A stretch of 64,000 nt of DNA from a virus. The notes under the pieces are model-generated. The model was not told the DNA's origin. It saw only the letters and a program-made list of their open reading frames with translations, and did not search any database. A program made the position numbers and the translations under genes. How positions within the stretch are numbered: position 1 is the stretch's first letter; the number at the start of each line of letters is the position of its first letter. The stretch lies in the IMG/VR virus record IMGVR_UViG_3300039106_000282, positions 1 to 64,000 of that record; one strand, given 5' to 3'. Shown piece after piece: positions 1,465 through 47,357 of the stretch.

Positions 1465-3281
1465 TTAGTTTGGATTTCGAGACGTATTACAGCAAGACCT
1501 ACAGCTTATCCAAGCTAACCACTGAAGAGTATGTAAACGGTGATGAGTTTGAGGTGATTGGTGTAGGCATCAAGGTAGACGATAAACCTACTATCTTTTA
1601 CACAGGGTCTAAGGAGGAGCTTAAGGCGTACCTAGACTTATACGATATACCTAATCAGATACTGCTGTGCCATAACACATTCTTTGATGCAACGATTCTA
1701 TCCGAGTATTTTGGTATCACGGCTAAGAGGTACATAGACACCCTGTCTATGGCTCGTGCAATACATGGCATATCAGTAGGCGGTAGCCTAGCTAAACTAG
1801 TAGAGCACTACGGTATTGGTGTTAAAGGCACAGAGGTAGTAAACGCATTGGGTAAACATCTCAAAGACTTCTCGCCAGAGGAGCTTGCAAGGTACGGTGA
1901 ATACTGTGTGAACGATGTGGAGGTTACCTATAAACTATTCCATGCACTGATGCCAAACTTTAATACACAGGAGCTATCGCTAATTGATATCACCATTAAG
2001 ATGGCAACAAACCCTACGCTAACTATCGACCTGCCCATGCTGGAGTCCTACCTGCATGAAGTACGCACAAAGAAGGAAGACTTACTGAGTCGAGTGGTTG
2101 CCGATAAGAAAGAGCTGATGAGTAACCCTAAGTTCGCAGCACTGCTTGAGCAGTATGGTGTAGAACCTCCAATGAAAGTATCACCTACCACAGGGAAACT
2201 AACGTACGCATTTGCAAAGACTGATGACGGACTCAAAGACTTACTTGAGCATGAGAACCCCGAAGTGCAAGCACTGGTCGCAACCCGACTGGGTGTTAAG
2301 AGTACAATCGAAGAGACAAGAGCTGAACGCTTTATTGGAATCGCTAAACGAACTAATTACCTACCCATACCACTAAGCTATTATGGCGCGGCGACAGGGC
2401 GCTGGTCTGCAGGGAGTGGCCAGAAATTGAACCTACAAAATCTGCCTAGAGAAAGCACACTTAAGAAGTCTATTGTTGCACCTGATGGTATGGTCGTAGT
2501 AGGGGCTGACTTATCTAACATTGAACTACGGGTGGGTCTTTGGGTGTGTGATGAGATGGAGGCTCTCAAGTCACTAGGTGATGGTCGGGACTTATATAAG
2601 GAGTTTGCATCCCTTGCGTTTAACGTACCTTATGAGGAGGTAACTAAGGCTCAAAGGTTTATCGGAAAAACATCTCAGCTAGGACTTATATTTGGTGTAG
2701 GTGCGGCGAAGCTACGAGATGCTGTGAAGTCTGGGTCAGGCACTGACTTAGGTGAGATGGAAGCGAAGCGCATCGTTGACCTCTACCGCAATACATACAC
2801 AGGGGTGACAGCGTTTTGGAAAACGTGCAGTAGTGCTATTAAGGCAATCGCTGACGATGGTACGTTTACATTTGGTCGCAATGGTTTGTATGTAGTGGAC
2901 GGTAAGCGCGGTGTGAAGCTCCCGTCTGGTCTGTATATGCAGTACCCACAGCTTGAGAATGTGATAGATGAATCGTCTGGTGAGAAGGGTTACAAGTATA
3001 AACTGCGCAACGGTTATGATAGACTTTACGGCGGTAAGTTAACAAACAATCTGGTGCAAGGTACGGCACGATGCATCATGTCAGAGGCTATGGTTCGCAT
3101 AGCTAAGAGGTATCAAATCGCGCTGTCTATTCATGACGCGCTGTATATAGTTGTGCCAGAGGATGAGGCGCAGGAAGCCTTAGACTTTTTAATTGAAGAG
3201 ATGTGCAGACCACCAGAGTGGATGCCCGATATACCCCTAGCGGCTGAGGGCGGTTGGGGTAGAAGTATAGCTGATTGTTAG
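1461..3281 (+). CDS. family A DNA polymerase with 3'-5' exonuclease
   Basis: Replicative DNA polymerase of the phage. The exonuclease half begins at once with motif I (D5-x-E7 in LDFET), motif II around LLCHNTFFDA and motif III YCVNDVEVTY. The polymerase half shows motif A (GADLSNIELR, usually DYSQIELR), the O-helix around KTSQLGLIFGVG and motif C (SIHDALYIVV). In motif C the usual His-Asp-Glu is His-Asp-Ala, while the metal-binding Asp is kept. The length of 606 residues fits phage Pol I-type enzymes without a 5' nuclease domain. It starts with an ATGA overlap to the preceding membrane protein. With the primase-helicase at 13234 and the SSB candidate at 12292 it forms the core replisome. Confidence 0.96.
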   Translation: MISLDFETYYSKTYSLSKLTTEEYVNGDEFEVIGVGIKVDDKPTIFYTGSKEELKAYLDLYDIPNQILLCHNTFFDATILSEYFGITAKRYIDTLSMARAIHGISVGGSLAKLVEHYGIGVKGTEVVNALGKHLKDFSPEELARYGEYCVNDVEVTYKLFHALMPNFNTQELSLIDITIKMATNPTLTIDLPMLESYLHEVRTKKEDLLSRVVADKKELMSNPKFAALLEQYGVEPPMKVSPTTGKLTYAFAKTDDGLKDLLEHENPEVQALVATRLGVKSTIEETRAERFIGIAKRTNYLPIPLSYYGAATGRWSAGSGQKLNLQNLPRESTLKKSIVAPDGMVVVGADLSNIELRVGLWVCDEMEALKSLGDGRDLYKEFASLAFNVPYEEVTKAQRFIGKTSQLGLIFGVGAAKLRDAVKSGSGTDLGEMEAKRIVDLYRNTYTGVTAFWKTCSSAIKAIADDGTFTFGRNGLYVVDGKRGVKLPSGLYMQYPQLENVIDESSGEKGYKYKLRNGYDRLYGGKLTNNLVQGTARCIMSEAMVRIAKRYQIALSIHDALYIVVPEDEAQEALDFLIEEMCRPPEWMPDIPLAAEGGWGRSIADC

Positions 3282-3290
3282 GAGAGTATG

Positions 3291-3443
3291 ATGACAAAGA
3301 CTGAAATGTATAAACGCCTTGAGATGGCACAAAAGAACAAGAAAGAACTTAAGAAAGTAAAACTAAAACTACTCGCAGAGATACAGCAACTTAAGCTGAT
3401 GCTCCGAGCGATGGAAGAACAGGAGGTACTCGATGGCAATTGA
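3291..3443 (+). CDS. short basic coiled-coil protein (50 aa)
   Basis: Two ATGs are adjacent at 3288 and 3291. The second is better spaced from the GGAG at 3281-3284. Almost the whole chain is Lys/Glu/Leu/Met-rich with heptad-like hydrophobics, predicting one long helix or coiled coil. Its end overlaps the next gene, whose ribosome site (AGGAGG) lies within it. It could be a dimerising accessory protein; no family is recognised. Confidence 0.55.
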   Translation: MTKTEMYKRLEMAQKNKKELKKVKLKLLAEIQQLKLMLRAMEEQEVLDGN

Positions 3444-4065
3444 AATACATGAGTCTGGAGGTTTAATCCATATTGAGTTTGAAGCACCTAAAAAAGGGTT
3501 TACTGTTTGTTGTTCCTTAACACGGGCAGAGCTTGTTCATGTCATAGAAACTGGAGAGTTTAAACTAAACACTAAATGCTCGAATGACTACCCGTTATAT
3601 GACCATTGCGGACATAATAGTAATGTTAGAAAGATAATTAAATACTTTGATATGGAAGAAGACCATTCTCGTATTATGGAACTAACTGCTAAAAAACATA
3701 AACACCCTTTACTTAAATTACAGATGCAAATATCTTCTGATGGGGTATGTATAGGTATAGACAAAGTTGATGGTATTGACTGTGATTATTTTGGGTTATC
3801 GCATTGTAAAGAGCACTACAAAAGGTTTTCAAAAGTAGATGTCGAGTATGATGATTTAGAAAGTAAGTTAATAGAACCTTTAGCAAAAGACATAGAGAGA
3901 AGACTATTGATGTACGCGGCTAACACAATACAAATTGAAACTCCTTGGTTATATACCCTTACAGACGAACAAGTATTGAGATACAACACGATGCTGACAA
4001 AAGCAACCGTTCAATTTAAGAAAGATTTTGAAGCGATGTATAAACAGGGGATACTCGATGGCTGA
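3433..4065 (+). CDS. hypothetical protein (210 aa)
   Basis: The start is well supported by AGGAGGTACTCG just upstream. The protein has several Cys and His residues in the first 60 and around position 115-130 (CDYFGLSHCKEH), which could bind metal, followed by a helical C-terminal half. Composition is like its neighbours. I do not recognise the family. It lies between the polymerase and the NrdJb-like gene in the same operon. Confidence 0.7.
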   Translation: MAIEIHESGGLIHIEFEAPKKGFTVCCSLTRAELVHVIETGEFKLNTKCSNDYPLYDHCGHNSNVRKIIKYFDMEEDHSRIMELTAKKHKHPLLKLQMQISSDGVCIGIDKVDGIDCDYFGLSHCKEHYKRFSKVDVEYDDLESKLIEPLAKDIERRLLMYAANTIQIETPWLYTLTDEQVLRYNTMLTKATVQFKKDFEAMYKQGILDG

Positions 4066-4150
4066 GTTAATTTATTGGACAGTGATTGCAATCACTGTAG
4101 TTTTATTTGCAATGGAATATACAAAAGGGGATGACAATGACCTTAGATGA
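4058..4150 (+). CDS. 30-residue membrane micropeptide
   Basis: An ATG at 4058 preceded by AGGGGATACTCG opens a 30-codon frame. Residues about 4-19 are hydrophobic (LIYWTVIAITVVLFA), followed by a short charged tail. It overlaps both the end of the previous gene and the start of the next, as real genes in this operon do. Confidence 0.5.
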   Translation: MAELIYWTVIAITVVLFAMEYTKGDDNDLR

Positions 4151-4226
4151 TTGGGTGGCACTTGTTGCCTATGTAGGGTTTATTGGCTTATCAATGAGGA
4201 TACTATGGACAAAGTTAAAAAGGTAG
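4137..4226 (+). CDS. 29-residue membrane micropeptide
   Basis: The ATG at 4137 lies 6 bases after AAGGGG (an in-frame ATG at 4131 is too close to it). The chain has one hydrophobic helix (WVALVAYVGFIGLSM) and a basic end (LWTKLKR), the usual positive-inside arrangement. It overlaps the flanking small genes. With the preceding micropeptide it forms a back-to-back pair of single-helix peptides. Confidence 0.5.
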   Translation: MTLDDWVALVAYVGFIGLSMRILWTKLKR

Positions 4227-4363
4227 AAGCAGTAACGCCTGTGCCTAGCGCAGTGAATTGTAAGCACGCCCATTGGCGGGTGTATCAAAGTCGTGGGTAT
4301 CGTGAGTGTGATAAATGCAAAGAACAACGCCCCATTTTTAATGACATAAGACACCAGAGGTAA
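4205..4363 (+). CDS. small zinc-ribbon-like protein (52 aa)
   Basis: The ATG at 4205 follows TGAGGATACT. The central part holds C-x-H-x-H and, about 16 residues on, ECDKCKEQR, a pattern typical of a small zinc knuckle or ribbon. The N-terminus is Lys/Val-rich. Probably a nucleic-acid- or protein-binding accessory protein. Confidence 0.6.
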   Translation: MDKVKKVEAVTPVPSAVNCKHAHWRVYQSRGYRECDKCKEQRPIFNDIRHQR

Positions 4364-4365
4364 GT

Positions 4366-4983
4366 ATGACATACACAATAGATAAGAAGATTACAGGCTA
4401 CAAAGTAGTAGACAAGGATTCCTTGACAACTGAAACGTCTGTAGACGTAGAGAAGATGCACGAGCTATTACCTAGACCAGAGTATCTGCAAGGGACAACC
4501 TATAAGATTAAGACACCGCAGTCTGAGCACGCTCTGTATATCACGATTAACGATATGGTGCTTAACGGTGACGAGCGTCACCCCTACGAGATGTTTATTA
4601 ACTCTAAGAATATGGAGCACTTTCAGTGGGTACTTGCATTAACACGCTTAGTGTCTGCTGTATGGCGCAAAGGTGGTGATAGTACATTCCTAGTGGAAGA
4701 ACTAAAGAATGTGTTCGACCCGAAGGGCGGCTACTATAAACGTGGTGGTGTGTATATGCCATCACTGGTGGCTGAGATTGGTACTGTAATTGAGCAACAT
4801 TTAAAAAGCATTGGCGTAATTAAAGTTGAAGTGGATGAGCATCAACAGGCGTACTTGGAAGCTAAGAAAGAAGAAGCTAGAGGTGTTGAGATGCAACTAT
4901 GCACTAAGTGTAATACAAAAGCTCTGATATTAATGGACGGGTGTATGACGTGTACTAACTGTGGCGACTCTAAATGTGGGTGA
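4366..4983 (+). CDS. nrdJb: NrdJb-like C-terminal part of B12-dependent ribonucleotide reductase
   Basis: Matches the separate C-terminal subunit of class II (adenosylcobalamin) ribonucleotide reductase as found in Pseudomonas. The recognisable parts are the EMFINSKNMEHFQW segment, VWRKGGDSTFLVEELKNVFD, the GGYYKRGG-YMPSLVAEIG segment, and a C-terminal zinc ribbon (C-x2-C near residue 180, then CMTCTNCGDSKCG). In the family this part carries the TSCPD-type domain and the zinc-binding tail, not the radical active site. The large catalytic subunit NrdJa is not in this window. It may be encoded elsewhere in the phage, or this protein may work with or interfere with a host enzyme. Ribosome site AGAGGTAAGT. 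Confidence 0.85.
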   Translation: MTYTIDKKITGYKVVDKDSLTTETSVDVEKMHELLPRPEYLQGTTYKIKTPQSEHALYITINDMVLNGDERHPYEMFINSKNMEHFQWVLALTRLVSAVWRKGGDSTFLVEELKNVFDPKGGYYKRGGVYMPSLVAEIGTVIEQHLKSIGVIKVEVDEHQQAYLEAKKEEARGVEMQLCTKCNTKALILMDGCMTCTNCGDSKCG

Positions 4984-4995
4984 GGAGAAAATAAA

Positions 4996-5460
4996 ATGAA
5001 CGAATACGAAATAATGATTAAGAATTTGGAAAACAGAGTCACTGAGCTAGAAAAACATACTCAATGTGGGGGAGTCAGTATGCCAACAGTCAGAAAGTGG
5101 CAACCTAAAGGTGGGAACTTTTTTATTCAAAGTAGTGGGAAGATGTCTGAAGTAGTTGGCGGCAGTGATACTCCACATAAAGAATTTGGAGCGGAACGTC
5201 CAGAACGGCAACAAGCACAACGCGCGGCAGTTGAAATGCGCAGGTTTAATCGGTTACTTGCTCTAAGGGACGAGTTGTGTGGTGAGGTGGTGGATTGGAC
5301 AGACGATGAAGAAAAATATCATATTTATTTTTCTCACGAAAGGGGACGTTGGTATATTACACCAGATATATTTTGTGAAAGCATTACACCTTACTTCACA
5401 AGTGACGAATTAGCACAAAAGGCTTGCGATATGTTGAATTCTGGGGAGGTGGAGTTATGA
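4996..5460 (+). CDS. hypothetical phage protein with coiled-coil start (154 aa)
   Basis: Starts after GAGGAGAAAATAAA. Residues 1-21 form a heptad-like helix (MIKNLENRVTELEKH). Next comes a Gly-rich basic segment beginning VRKWQPKGGNFFI, a pattern I associate with uncharacterised phage proteins. Then follow an Arg/Ala-rich helix and a C-terminal acidic, aromatic domain. The function is unknown. It is probably soluble. Confidence 0.65.
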   Translation: MNEYEIMIKNLENRVTELEKHTQCGGVSMPTVRKWQPKGGNFFIQSSGKMSEVVGGSDTPHKEFGAERPERQQAQRAAVEMRRFNRLLALRDELCGEVVDWTDDEEKYHIYFSHERGRWYITPDIFCESITPYFTSDELAQKACDMLNSGEVEL

Positions 5461-5591
5461 GTAAAGAAGATATGCAGTATCTAAAAGGATGGGGGTTATC
5501 AATACTGATAGCCATTACCATAGTTGCTTTTGCTAACGCTGATATAAAACTAAGAACTGGTGAAAATATACAATGTAAGGTTGAGTTATGA
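5457..5591 (+). CDS. small membrane or secreted protein (44 aa)
   Basis: The start overlaps the previous stop (ATGA) and follows GGAGGTGGAGTT. Residues about 11-27 are hydrophobic (GWGLSILIAITIVAFANA) and end in Ala-x-Ala, so they could be either a membrane anchor or a cleavable signal. A short polar tail with one Cys follows. Confidence 0.5.
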   Translation: MSKEDMQYLKGWGLSILIAITIVAFANADIKLRTGENIQCKVEL

Positions 5592-5782
5592 GTATTCAAT
5601 ACAAGAACAAAAAAACCGGTGACGTTTGCTTACTTGAAACCGCGTGTCATATAAAAATTGGCAATAACTGGGTTAATGGTGTTGCTTATTTTAATGCAAA
5701 TAAACTTCGTGAAATGTTTGTTATAACTGAAGATGATTTTTTTAATTCTTTTGAGGAAATTATTGATGAGGTGGAGTTATGA
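5588..5782 (+). CDS. hypothetical protein (64 aa)
   Basis: Starts with an ATGA overlap after GGTTGAGTT. The beta-rich N-terminal part contains two Cys, then comes an acidic, Phe-rich helix (DDFFNSFEEIIDE). Its C-terminal EVEL and the DNA around it (GAGGTGGAGTTATGAGT) repeat the end of the gene at 4996-5460, a local duplication of the intergenic coupling sequence. The function is unknown. Confidence 0.6.
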   Translation: MSIQYKNKKTGDVCLLETACHIKIGNNWVNGVAYFNANKLREMFVITEDDFFNSFEEIIDEVEL

Positions 5783-5910
5783 GTGAATTTGTCATGTTTG
5801 TTGTCGGGATTGTAATTGGTTGGTGTCTATCATGTCAGTTTGCAACTCCTTGCAAACCCGAATGGAAATGGGAAGAAAGACCATACTCAAAGGATGCTAA
5901 AAATGAATGA
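5779..5910 (+). CDS. small membrane protein (43 aa)
   Basis: Starts with an ATGA overlap after GAGGTGGAGTT. Residues 3-19 are hydrophobic (EFVMFVVGIVIGWCLSC) with two Cys at the end of the helix. A polar Trp/Lys/Glu-rich tail follows. It could be a single-pass membrane protein or a lipoprotein-like precursor, although no basic n-region precedes the hydrophobic part. Confidence 0.5.
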   Translation: MSEFVMFVVGIVIGWCLSCQFATPCKPEWKWEERPYSKDAKNE

Positions 5911-6182: not shown

Positions 6183-6335
6183 ATGAAAACTGAATCGAAT
6201 TCTTATGAACGTGATATTGACGAATTGGTCGGTGTGTTGATTGAAGTAAGAAAGTGGATGTCAGAACAAGGTATATTGAAATCAAAAACAATGAACAAAA
6301 TTGATGAAATTTTAAAAAAATACAAGGTAAATTAA
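6183..6335 (+). CDS. small helical protein (50 aa)
   Basis: Preceded by TTGGAGAAATAAA, a strong ribosome site. The product is a Lys/Glu/Ile-rich helical chain with a single Trp. It lies directly before the endonuclease-dUTPase fusion. Function unknown. Confidence 0.55.
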   Translation: MKTESNSYERDIDELVGVLIEVRKWMSEQGILKSKTMNKIDEILKKYKVN

Positions 6336-6336
6336 A

Positions 6337-7257
6337 ATGGCTGAAAATAACGTAACGTGTTACATCTGCAAAACACCATTTCATTTAAAACTAAGTCATT
6401 TAGAAAAAAGAGTGCATAAAGATAAAATAACTTGTTCAAGATTATGTAGCTCTATGGCTAGAAAAGAAATTATGAATGGTGAAAATAACCATCAATTTGG
6501 ATTGAAGGGTGAATTAAACAGTAGTCATATATCTGATATTCGTACTTCGTCTTATGGGTACATATTAGTAAGAGCGTCTACTCATCCATTAGCGCATTAT
6601 GATGGGTACATGATGCTTCATAGGTTAATATATGAGGAATATTTACGAAGTGTTAATGATTACGATTATTTAATTGAAATAAATAACAACTGGTATTTAA
6701 ATCCAGCTTACGTTATTCATCATGTTGATGGTAACAGGCTTAACAATAATTTAGCTAACTTAGAATTAACAACTTTAGCGGAACATTCGGCAAGACACGC
6801 AGATGATAGACGCATTATTAGAGATGAATTAGGACGCATTGTTGATGTAAAAGGTGAAATAAAAAAAGGAAGTTTAACAAGGAACAAAAGACTAGATGCA
6901 GGGCAAGATGTTAAAGCTAGTAAGGCAGTTATTATACCAGCGAGAGGTGATACCCTTGTATTTACCAACTTAATAATAAATGTGCCAGAAGGTTATGTTG
7001 GATTACTTTGGTCAAGAAGTGGACTATCTGTTAAGCACAAGATTGAAGTTGGTGCTGGGTGCATAGATAGTGGGTATAGTGGTGAAGTATTGGTACATTT
7101 ATATAATCATTCTGATGTGCCATACGAGGTTAATGTTGGGGATAGAATCGCACAATTACTAACTATACCTATTAATTTAAATGAATATGTAGAAGTAGAC
7201 GAGTTCAGTAGCATTACTGAGCGTGGTGAAGGTGGATTTGGAAGTACGGGGAAATAA
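6337..7257 (+). CDS. HNH endonuclease fused in frame to dUTPase
   Basis: One 306-residue frame holds two complete modules. Residues about 1-155 are an HNH homing-type endonuclease: zinc-knuckle cysteines C8, C11, C33 and C37, then the HNH core VIHHVDGNRLNNNLANLEL at 126-144 and a trailing EHSARH. Residues about 185-306 are a trimeric-type dUTPase (dUTP to dUMP and pyrophosphate), with motif I DAGQDVKA (187-194), II SRSGLSVK (226-233), III CIDSGYSGEV (242-251), IV GDRIAQLL (268-275) and V RGEGGFGSTG (296-305). All five motifs look intact, so the enzyme is probably active and supplies dUMP to ThyX at 7456. The natural dUTPase start appears to lie inside the 160-185 linker. The reading frame is unbroken, so this is a fusion and not a disrupted gene. 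There are no intein splice motifs. Confidence 0.9.
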   Translation: MAENNVTCYICKTPFHLKLSHLEKRVHKDKITCSRLCSSMARKEIMNGENNHQFGLKGELNSSHISDIRTSSYGYILVRASTHPLAHYDGYMMLHRLIYEEYLRSVNDYDYLIEINNNWYLNPAYVIHHVDGNRLNNNLANLELTTLAEHSARHADDRRIIRDELGRIVDVKGEIKKGSLTRNKRLDAGQDVKASKAVIIPARGDTLVFTNLIINVPEGYVGLLWSRSGLSVKHKIEVGAGCIDSGYSGEVLVHLYNHSDVPYEVNVGDRIAQLLTIPINLNEYVEVDEFSSITERGEGGFGSTGK

Positions 7258-7258
7258 C

Positions 7259-7459
7259 ATGATTGCAACAACAGCTTATATTTTAATCAATACTATTGTG
7301 GCGTTTGGCGAAGTTACTCAGACAACAACAATTTTTGCAGACAAGACATCATGTGAGTCAGCCGCAGTTAGACAAGACTTTGTGATGAAGTCACTTGAAA
7401 TACACGGTAGATGGAACTTAACGTGCCATCCGTATGCACTTAGCGAGGATAAGAAATGA
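7259..7459 (+). CDS. small probably exported Cys protein (66 aa)
   Basis: The first 17 residues are hydrophobic (IATTAYILINTIVAF) and are followed by a Thr-rich stretch and two cysteines (about C32 and C55). This suggests a membrane-targeted or exported small protein with a disulfide. It sits between the dUTPase fusion and thyX and overlaps the thyX start by ATGA. The function is unknown. Confidence 0.55.
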   Translation: MIATTAYILINTIVAFGEVTQTTTIFADKTSCESAAVRQDFVMKSLEIHGRWNLTCHPYALSEDKK

Positions 7460-8031
7460 AAGTCACGCTAATACAGAATACACCTAATCCAGAAGAACAT
7501 ATCGGTCTCCTTGCAGGTATCTGCTACGGTAAGACGGGTGAGCAATCGCCAGAGCAGTGTATTAAGAGAGCTTACCACTGCGTAACTAAAGGGCATCTGT
7601 CAACACTGCGCTTTGCTCATGCTACGTTTTTGATTGAGGATATTAGTCGTATCTGCTCACACCAGTTTGTTCGCAGTAAGCATTTGGATTTCTTGCAACG
7701 TAGTCAGCGATATTGTAATGAAGAAGAAACCAATGTAGTTATTCCAGAAAGTATTAGCAAATATGACGTACAGGATTTTGTTTATAACGCTCAAATATTA
7801 TATGAAAACTTAATCAAAAAGGGCGTTAAAAAAGAAGATGCGCGATTCATCCTACCACAAGGCACAACAACAGAGCTTCTTGCAGTAGGTAACTTCCAAG
7901 CATGGTATGACTTTATTAAACTGCGTAGTGGTAAAGAAGTGCAGTGGGAGATACGAGCAGTAGCGCATGAGATTAACCGTCAGCTTCATAGCATTGCACC
8001 TAATATCTTCAAGGAGCTTGAGCATGAATAG
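7456..8031 (+). CDS. thyX: flavin-dependent thymidylate synthase ThyX
   Basis: Makes dTMP from dUMP using FAD, NADPH and methylene-tetrahydrofolate. The whole chain aligns by eye with ThyX: the GHLSTLRFAHATF segment (46-58), the signature region SRICSHQFVRSKHLDFLQRSQRY (64-86) and LPQGTTTELLAVGNFQAWYDFIKLR near 140-160. The signature RHR-x7-S is here RSK-x7-S (residues 73-83). The second Arg and the His of the FAD-binding triplet are changed, while the Ser and the following QRY are kept. The length of 191 residues is on the short side for the family. It follows the dUTPase fusion, giving a dUTP to dUMP to dTMP route. Confidence 0.93.
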   Translation: MKVTLIQNTPNPEEHIGLLAGICYGKTGEQSPEQCIKRAYHCVTKGHLSTLRFAHATFLIEDISRICSHQFVRSKHLDFLQRSQRYCNEEETNVVIPESISKYDVQDFVYNAQILYENLIKKGVKKEDARFILPQGTTTELLAVGNFQAWYDFIKLRSGKEVQWEIRAVAHEINRQLHSIAPNIFKELEHE

Positions 8032-45418: not shown

Positions 45419-46324
45419 TTATGCAACTATTTTATTAGCTCCTCTACTCATCTTTTTACGACCCTCTTCAGTTGACCATTTCATCTTCATTTCAATACGT
45501 TTCTTCTCATTTCTAATAAGTGCTCCGCACTCTGCACAGCCTGACCCTTTTCTAAATTGAGCCGCATATTGAGAGAACTCTCCGTGCGTAGGACATACAC
45601 ACCCTGTAATTCTATTTAACGCCCCTGTGTAGATGGCATTAGTAAAATCATACTTACTACGCACTTCTTCTGGAAACTTAGCTAGTACCTCATTTAAAGG
45701 GGTATGTTCTTGTGGTCTGGCGTTACGCTTCATAGTCTCTTGAGCTTTACGTAATCCTTCTTCTGTATATACTCTAGGTGCTTTTTTAACACCTTTCTGA
45801 GCTTCACTTATTTTAAGTTTTGTCTCATCAGAACGTGTTTTACCCTGCCAGTATTTTGAAGGGTTTGCCATTTTTGCAGTACTGATACGCTGTTTAGTTT
45901 CTTCTGTATGCTTTTTACCAATACGAGGGTCCGGTTGCGCTAACCTAGCTTTCCGCAATACACCCTTTTGGTCTTCAGACATAACTCTACCAAAGTTAGG
46001 GTGTAACTCCTTAGCTACTCCTCTCCACGGTGCGCCCGATCTAAGTCCATGATTGTAACAGTTTTCGTTACCTACCCATTCAGATAACCAAACATCTTCA
46101 GCTTTTTGTAATTCGTCTATACTACTTACTACTTCTACAACTTCAAAAACAAAACAATCCTCCCCGTATTTGTTCCATGCTGCCTGTAAATGAGCGCAGT
46201 GATGTTTGCTACTGCGCAGTTTATTTCTGTGTGTTCTAAACCTTTCACGTTTGTTACCTGTGCTTCCAACATAGAACTTTTGGTTAACAACATTTCTTAT
46301 TTTGTAGATTACTGGTACTTTCAT
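45419..46324 (-). CDS. GIY-YIG homing endonuclease with NUMOD3 repeats
   Basis: The start ATG at 46324 is chosen at the GIY-YIG boundary. The N-terminus has VIYKIRNVVNQKFYVGST (GIY...YVG), the catalytic Arg in KRERFRTHR, and E in LQKAEDVWLSEW. Two NUMOD3-type DNA-binding modules follow (GKKHTEETKQRIS and GKTRSDETKLKIS), then a C-terminal Cys/His zinc-like motif (CPTHGEF...GCAECG). It is a free-standing mobile endonuclease sitting directly after the major capsid gene and its terminator. It has no clear ribosome site of its own. Confidence 0.93.
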   Translation of the reverse strand: MKVPVIYKIRNVVNQKFYVGSTGNKRERFRTHRNKLRSSKHHCAHLQAAWNKYGEDCFVFEVVEVVSSIDELQKAEDVWLSEWVGNENCYNHGLRSGAPWRGVAKELHPNFGRVMSEDQKGVLRKARLAQPDPRIGKKHTEETKQRISTAKMANPSKYWQGKTRSDETKLKISEAQKGVKKAPRVYTEEGLRKAQETMKRNARPQEHTPLNEVLAKFPEEVRSKYDFTNAIYTGALNRITGCVCPTHGEFSQYAAQFRKGSGCAECGALIRNEKKRIEMKMKWSTEEGRKKMSRGANKIVA

Positions 46325-46393
46325 TTTAATGTCCGGTGTAAATTTAGTGAAACTTACTATACCACTTACCACACAGCGTGTAAACATTAATAA

Positions 46394-46445: not shown

Positions 46446-47357
46446 TTAGTTTGAACCAGATGAACCATACATACCTAAGGGATCAGACCAGCCAAAAGAA
46501 TAACGTTCACGAGCTTTGTATCTCATGTTCCCAGTATCAAAATCGGAATCTGATGAAGTTACCAATGATTGACGCACAAAATGTTTCAAACCGTTTGGTA
46601 CATCAGTAGTTAAGAACCACGCATTGGTGTCTGTTAAGAAGTTATTAACAGTGTAACCTTCTGGGATAGAACCGTTGTTTTTTAACGCGTTGATGTCGTT
46701 ATCGGTTGTGCCTACACGTTGTTCTGTTTCGAGCAAACGAGTTGCAACGAATTGAAGTGCAGGTGGAACAATCAATTTTTTAGGTTTAGCAGCAATCAAC
46801 AAACCACGTTCATCAGTCCATTGTGCAATTTGAATAACAGCCGCTTCTAAAGAAGTTTCGTTTAAATCAGCAGGAGTTGATGGGATGTTTGAGTTTGTGC
46901 CGCCAGACACTAATGAGTGTGAAGCTGAAAATAATGCTGAACCGTCACCGCCAGTATAAGCAGAGTTGAAGCCGTTGTTTAAAACAGCCGCCGCTTTTAC
47001 TTGTTTGGTGTATGCCATAGCACGAGCCAACGCTTTTGTATAACGAGCAGACAATGAGTCATACAAGTTATCTTCTACAGCTTCTTCAGTTAATGAGAAA
47101 CCAAGAGCAATTGTTTCGTGGTTATAACGTGCAGTCCAAGCTTCTTGACCAGCTTCATATTGAATAGCAGAACCCTCGTTTTTAACTGCCGCTGCAGCAA
47201 AACCTGAAAGTTTTGTTTCTTCTTCAAATGAACGCTCAGAAGATTCGATTTCATAAATTTCTTTATGTTGTTCACCGTAGCGTGCGTACTCTAAACCGAA
47301 TAACGCGTTAAGGCCCGGTAATAACTCTTTTAATAGCTGTGCTCTAGAAATTGCCAT
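46446..47357 (-). CDS. major capsid protein
   Basis: A 303-residue protein with features of the HK97-type capsid in phages with a Mu gpT-like shell: LPGLNALFGLEYARYGEQHKEIYE and ERSFEEETKLSGFAAAAVKNEGSAIQY (N-arm and spine helix), TIALGFSLTEEAVEDNLYDSLS, and the large A-domain VNNFLTDTNAWFLTTDVPNGLKHFVRQSL. The C-terminal GMYGSSGSN ends cleanly. It follows the scaffold and two head genes and precedes a strong terminator, which fits high-level capsid synthesis. Confidence 0.93.
   Translation of the reverse strand: MAISRAQLLKELLPGLNALFGLEYARYGEQHKEIYEIESSERSFEEETKLSGFAAAAVKNEGSAIQYEAGQEAWTARYNHETIALGFSLTEEAVEDNLYDSLSARYTKALARAMAYTKQVKAAAVLNNGFNSAYTGGDGSALFSASHSLVSGGTNSNIPSTPADLNETSLEAAVIQIAQWTDERGLLIAAKPKKLIVPPALQFVATRLLETEQRVGTTDNDINALKNNGSIPEGYTVNNFLTDTNAWFLTTDVPNGLKHFVRQSLVTSSDSDFDTGNMRYKARERYSFGWSDPLGMYGSSGSN

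Follow-up and report, generated by a model that had tools for sequence, protein, structure and literature searches.

How does an HNH nuclease come to share a reading frame with a dUTPase, and does the joint gene behave as a mobile element? Homing endonucleases are known in introns, in inteins, or beside their target genes. The present case lies in a window of 64,000 nucleotides (positions 1–64,000 of the IMG/VR virus record IMGVR_UViG_3300039106_000282), in which an earlier note had placed HNH residues and five dUTPase motifs in one 306-residue frame. Pfam and the open frame at 6337–7257 confirmed this placement, and the fusion gene is best read as a putative homing endonuclease directed at dUTPase genes and bearing a dUTPase of its own.

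Layout and translation of the fusion gene

The features of the locus are the following:

6183..6335, + strand: 50-aa ORF travelling with the fusion; present in the window, L004, L076, and L005, and in none of the unfused relatives
6337..7257, + strand: HNH-dUTPase fusion gene, 306 aa; kept in contigs L004, L076, L005, L006, L083, L087, L091, and L093
6358..6447, + strand: N-terminal zinc ribbon, presumed DNA-binding (C8, C11, C33, C37)
6706..6807, + strand: HNH_3 nuclease motif, residues 124–157 (PF13392), beta-beta-alpha in the AlphaFold model
6805..6900, + strand: flexible linker, residues 157–188 (pLDDT <50; raised dN/dS between alleles; covered by the start-codon scan)
6874..7251, + strand: trimeric-type dUTPase domain, motifs I–V (PF00692), matching PDB dUTPases by sequence and fold
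7456..8031, + strand: ThyX thymidylate synthase, downstream of the fusion (PF02511, E = 6e-47)

The frame at 6337–7257 (+) runs without a stop through a zinc ribbon, an HNH_3 motif, a disordered linker, and a complete dUTPase. It starts with an ATG, has AAGG ahead of it, and directly adjoins the stop codon of the 50-aa ORF. The Pfam matches were to HNH_3 at residues 124–151 (E = 1.9e-7, above the gathering score) and to dUTPase PF00692 at residues 180–305 (E = 8.1e-30). When the fusion was compared with its fused relatives, the zinc-ligand cysteines (C8, C11, C33, C37), the HNH residues (H128, H129, N137, N141, H150, H154), and the dUTPase residues (D191, R227-S228-G229, D244, Q273, R296, G300-F301-G302, which include the catalytic Asp of motif III as well as motif V) were found to be invariant in 9/9 fusions. 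With its five conserved motifs, the C-terminal half may be assigned to the trimeric dUTPases. Likewise, intact catalytic residues together with a DNA-binding module give the fusion the predicted make-up of an HNH homing endonuclease.

In the AlphaFold model, the confidence of which was moderate (mean pLDDT 70.5, pTM 0.37), the nuclease-like and dUTPase-like parts are separate and joined by the segment 157–188. Disorder was likewise seen in the C-terminal arm with motif V, a common outcome when dUTPases are modelled as monomers. The matches of the model in a Foldseek search of the PDB were dUTPases. The best matches by sequence and fold, PDB 4oop and 6mjk, have all five motifs in common with the fusion, but the matched solved chains are without a nuclease domain. 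ThyX, encoded next to the fusion, uses dUMP, the product of dUTPase. No second dUTPase was found elsewhere in the 64.8-kb record, which is possibly a fragment, and no phage record was matched by megablast when the first 25 kb of the window served as query.

Two ways in which the fusion might prove false had been named in the earlier note. The first, a sequencing error hiding a stop or a frameshift, was rejected because eight further contigs, from independent assemblies, have this frame open as well. The second was an internal start giving dUTPase alone, in which case the fusion would be a translational overlap of two products. ATT codons are present in the linker, and ATT can serve as a rare start codon. 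However, the stretch from residue 93 to residue 216 is free of in-frame ATG, GTG, and TTG codons in the window and L004, as is the linker of L005, so that separate initiation of the dUTPase is unlikely; we allow the two-product explanation a very slight chance.

Conservation and repeated origin of the fusion

The same architecture was found in eight other contigs, making nine fusions with that of the window. Their identities to the window were as follows:

L004 98%, L076 94%, L005 82%, L083 58%, L006 56%
L087 47%, L091 38%, L093 36%

Among these, L076 is a contig in a Methylomonas MAG and L087 is a 217-kb contig. For alleles close enough to measure, dN/dS was 0.07–0.13 for the nuclease half and 0.04–0.15 for the dUTPase half, and the nuclease half showed no amino-acid change between the window and L004. 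In most pairs, both halves stayed within 0.05–0.13. The linker was looser against L005 and saturated against L006. These ratios indicate that both halves of the fusion are under purifying selection. It may be noted that further HNH-like homing endonuclease ORFs, recognized by eye, lie near the fusion in L006 (5382–5900) and L004 (3847–4449).

The fusions occupied three separate places in the HNH tree, seven rows making up the main clade and L091 and L093 standing apart from it and from each other. The AU test rejected a single clade of all fused HNHs (p = 3e-5); the corresponding value was p = 0.003 when L091 was left out and p = 0.055 when L093 was left out. The dUTPase tree placed L091 among dUTPases that are unfused or split by introns; the position of L093 was not firm. 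Two independent origins of the fusion are well supported by these trees, and three are likely.

The same HNH family has also been joined to another neighbor. In Vibrio phage 1.189 (L079, 2501–3347), the HNH and MazG-like genes overlap by a few bases, whereas in Vibrio phage 1.239 (L078, 2501–3346) the HNH and a MazG-like protein lie in one frame, the MazG match being below the Pfam cut-off. By analogy, this pair of phages may illustrate a possible route from overlapping genes to a fusion.

Replacement of the resident dUTPase and a probable footprint of homing

A search with the adjacent ThyX yielded 61 loci. An ordinary dUTPase, ~40% identical to the fused one and without an HNH match, lay upstream of ThyX in 54 of the contigs concerned. 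Two further segments were delimited by comparison with other contigs:

about 6196..7182, + strand: segment standing in place of the resident dUTPase; unfused relatives are homologous up to ~6195 and again from 7183–7192
6231..6794, + strand: 564-base run identical to L004, centered on the HNH part

In the window, L004, and L005, homology to the unfused relatives ended about 142–145 bases before the fusion start and resumed 847–856 bases after it, inside motif V; the boundaries were near-identical in all three. The alignments indicate that the fusion now occupies the locus at which sister phages have an ordinary dUTPase gene, and that it has displaced this gene. The fused alleles differed in which resident allele their C-terminal residues resembled, those of the window (VEVDEFSSITERGEGGFGSTG) matching L054 and those of L005 (VEVEEFSTVTERGAGGFGSTGV) matching L020. 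In L007, a ribonucleotide reductase-like ORF with an apparent intein (NPCFSYNTPIL...IIAHNC) was seen at 2891–5848, shortly before a dUTPase which, of the unfused ones, comes nearest to the fused form.

The window and L004 differed by ~8% in the nearby thyX. Between the window and L076, which have the cassette in common in different surroundings, dS was 0.19 for the HNH half and 0.62 for the dUTPase half. The pattern was reversed for L005, where the downstream backbone was mostly 94–100% identical and the cassette 75%. The divergence patterns of L004, L076, and L005 imply that the cassette moves independently of its surroundings. By these distances, the part of the cassette shared most recently is the nuclease half, and nuclease and dUTPase probably spread as one unit. 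A sporadic distribution was found together with an element-centered pattern like that of co-conversion, the pairwise synonymous contrast being significant for L076 (Fisher p = 1.7e-4) and, taken alone, not significant for L004 (p = 0.07); such a pattern is what homing with co-conversion would be expected to leave behind. It was also noticed by eye that L076 has a ThyA-type thymidylate synthase (4314–5147) in place of the ThyX of the window, the gene order being otherwise related.

Phage genomes are mosaic, and therefore the replacement and the identity peaks could also come from ordinary recombination. The fusion might then be a neutral read-through product, in which a non-homing HNH persists as a harmless N-terminal extension of a functional dUTPase and is moved by ordinary homologous recombination. 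Two modules with a disordered linker between them would fit such an origin, as would the recent frameshift fusion in Vibrio phage 1.239 as compared with 1.189. However, neutrality is at odds with the invariance of the HNH and zinc residues in nine fusions and with the HNH dN/dS of 0.07–0.13, and the synonymous divergence is lowest over the HNH, not over the dUTPase. We consider this explanation unlikely. A dUTPase gene with an HNH homing endonuclease as its 5′ end, translated as one two-domain protein and homing with co-conversion, is on the whole the probable one.

The earlier note had weighed a real fusion, coupling the survival of the mobile element to dUTPase, against an HNH remnant left by lack of a separating stop. 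The coupling reading appears the better supported, over both the remnant and an error, because the fusion is kept down to 36–58% identity with purifying selection on both halves, and because internal starts and a second dUTPase in the record are absent and the footprints resemble those of co-conversion. The fusion as such was recognized there correctly; what had escaped notice were the zinc ribbon at its N-terminus, the replacement of a resident dUTPase, and the wider family to which the HNH belongs.

A nuclease family tied to dUTPase genes and its proposed mode of mobility

Outside the fusions, the nearest HNH relatives lie within dUTPase genes of crAss-like phages, where they are annotated as intron-encoded. 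In the HNH clade, dUTPase sequence was found beside, around, or fused to the HNH in 21 of 22 non-redundant contigs; the exception is L100, a contig that stops 231 bases beyond the HNH. Among IMG/VR relatives, the dUTPase is split at motif III in L012, L086, L088, L092, and L096, and the HNH lies just downstream of the dUTPase in L089, L094, L095, and L099. Fifty more distant HNH loci gave a weak dUTPase match in one case. This distribution indicates that the HNH belongs to a family dedicated to dUTPase genes. Two other apparent HNH-dUTPase pairs were rejected as members: in MT836148 the upstream ORF is unrelated, and in Acinetobacter phage XC1 the nuclease-like ORF is both unfused and unrelated. 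In L089, the HNH ORF (2911–3612), downstream of a full, different dUTPase, ends in a dUTPase motif V (TERGENGFGSTGK), a tail that looks like the remnant of a displaced gene.

Several independent HNH-dUTPase fusions and the HNH-MazG fusion suggest a benefit of joining, and the HNH might have been recruited for a dUTPase-tied phage function (targeting of the enzyme to DNA, or attack on uracil-containing DNA), being no longer mobile. But a patchy distribution, replacement of the resident gene, and an HNH-centered identity peak are typical of homing, and the nearest relatives of the HNH are found next to dUTPase genes or within them, in several cases as insertions of the intron type. Such a recruitment seems improbable to us.

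Introns occur in core genes of crAss-like phages (PMC7886860). The HNHs of their dUTPase introns (Carjivirus communis KP06_gp35; cr1_1; cr50_1) are of the same family as that of the window (31–39% identical), occupy the same host gene, and have the same zinc-ribbon/HNH layout. They are, however, separate ORFs in an insertion that splits the dUTPase at motif III, whereas the HNH of the window is fused before an intact dUTPase. T4 SegF, inserted at soc/56, targets the adjacent gene 56 (dCTPase-dUTPase) (PMC2988022, PMC2993671). Like the proposed element, it is a phage homing endonuclease dedicated to a gene of dUTPase function; unlike the fusion, it is of the GIY-YIG type, is a separate gene, and is paired with a different enzyme (gp56). 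Co-conversion and marker exclusion are effects of free-standing endonucleases, and the HNH Mob enzymes nick (PMC2988022; PMC2993671). T4 MobA and MobE are such HNH nicking enzymes, MobE adjoining the nucleotide-metabolism genes nrdA/nrdB (PMC2988022), but they are free-standing and unfused to a host-gene product.

The uninterrupted frame with the dUTPase does not fit a free-standing homing endonuclease of the T4 Seg/Mob type. An intein was rejected, since the zinc ribbon begins at residue 8 and leaves no N-extein; the earlier note had seen no intein motifs in the frame, and the Pfam and PHROGs results agree in showing no intein family. As to a group I intron in the window, the dUTPase is contiguous and no Rfam match was obtained (nor did Rfam detect the annotated crAss intron); a search for intron core motifs matched L001 only. 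PADLOC gave no match to a defence system. The best reading is of an element that would act like a homing endonuclease, although the features tested set it apart from the free-standing, intron-borne, and intein types.

In a mixed infection, the zinc-ribbon/HNH module of this proposed homing element would nick the dUTPase locus of an element-free phage. Recombinational repair from the element-bearing genome would then copy the HNH together with the fused dUTPase, displacing the resident dUTPase, with crossovers in motif V and in the upstream gene that both phages share. Since dUMP for the adjacent thymidylate synthase would come from the fused dUTPase, loss of the element would mean loss of dUTPase function. 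Nicking, target site, homing, and dUTPase activity are all predictions from sequence here. Motif III, the intron site in relatives, is intact in the fused dUTPase, and self-cleavage must therefore somehow be avoided. The fuller account, in which a homing endonuclease with its own copy of the invaded gene in the same polypeptide replaced the resident dUTPase, made the phage dependent on it, and evolved repeatedly from a dUTPase-dedicated HNH lineage, is put forward tentatively, at slightly less than even chances.

If true, a stable and repeatedly evolved fusion to the target-gene product would be a further lifestyle of homing endonucleases, by which a selfish gene leaves the cycle of gain and loss by turning into the essential gene itself. 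With intron-split, adjacent, and fused forms all occurring around one target gene, the domestication route of mobile nucleases becomes directly testable. A literature search, mainly outside subscription journals, found no report of an HNH-dUTPase fusion. Elsewhere in the window, an ORF at 45419–46387 (− strand) has a GIY-YIG-like N-terminus by eye and is probably another homing endonuclease; it directly adjoins a probable head-protein gene (46446–47357).
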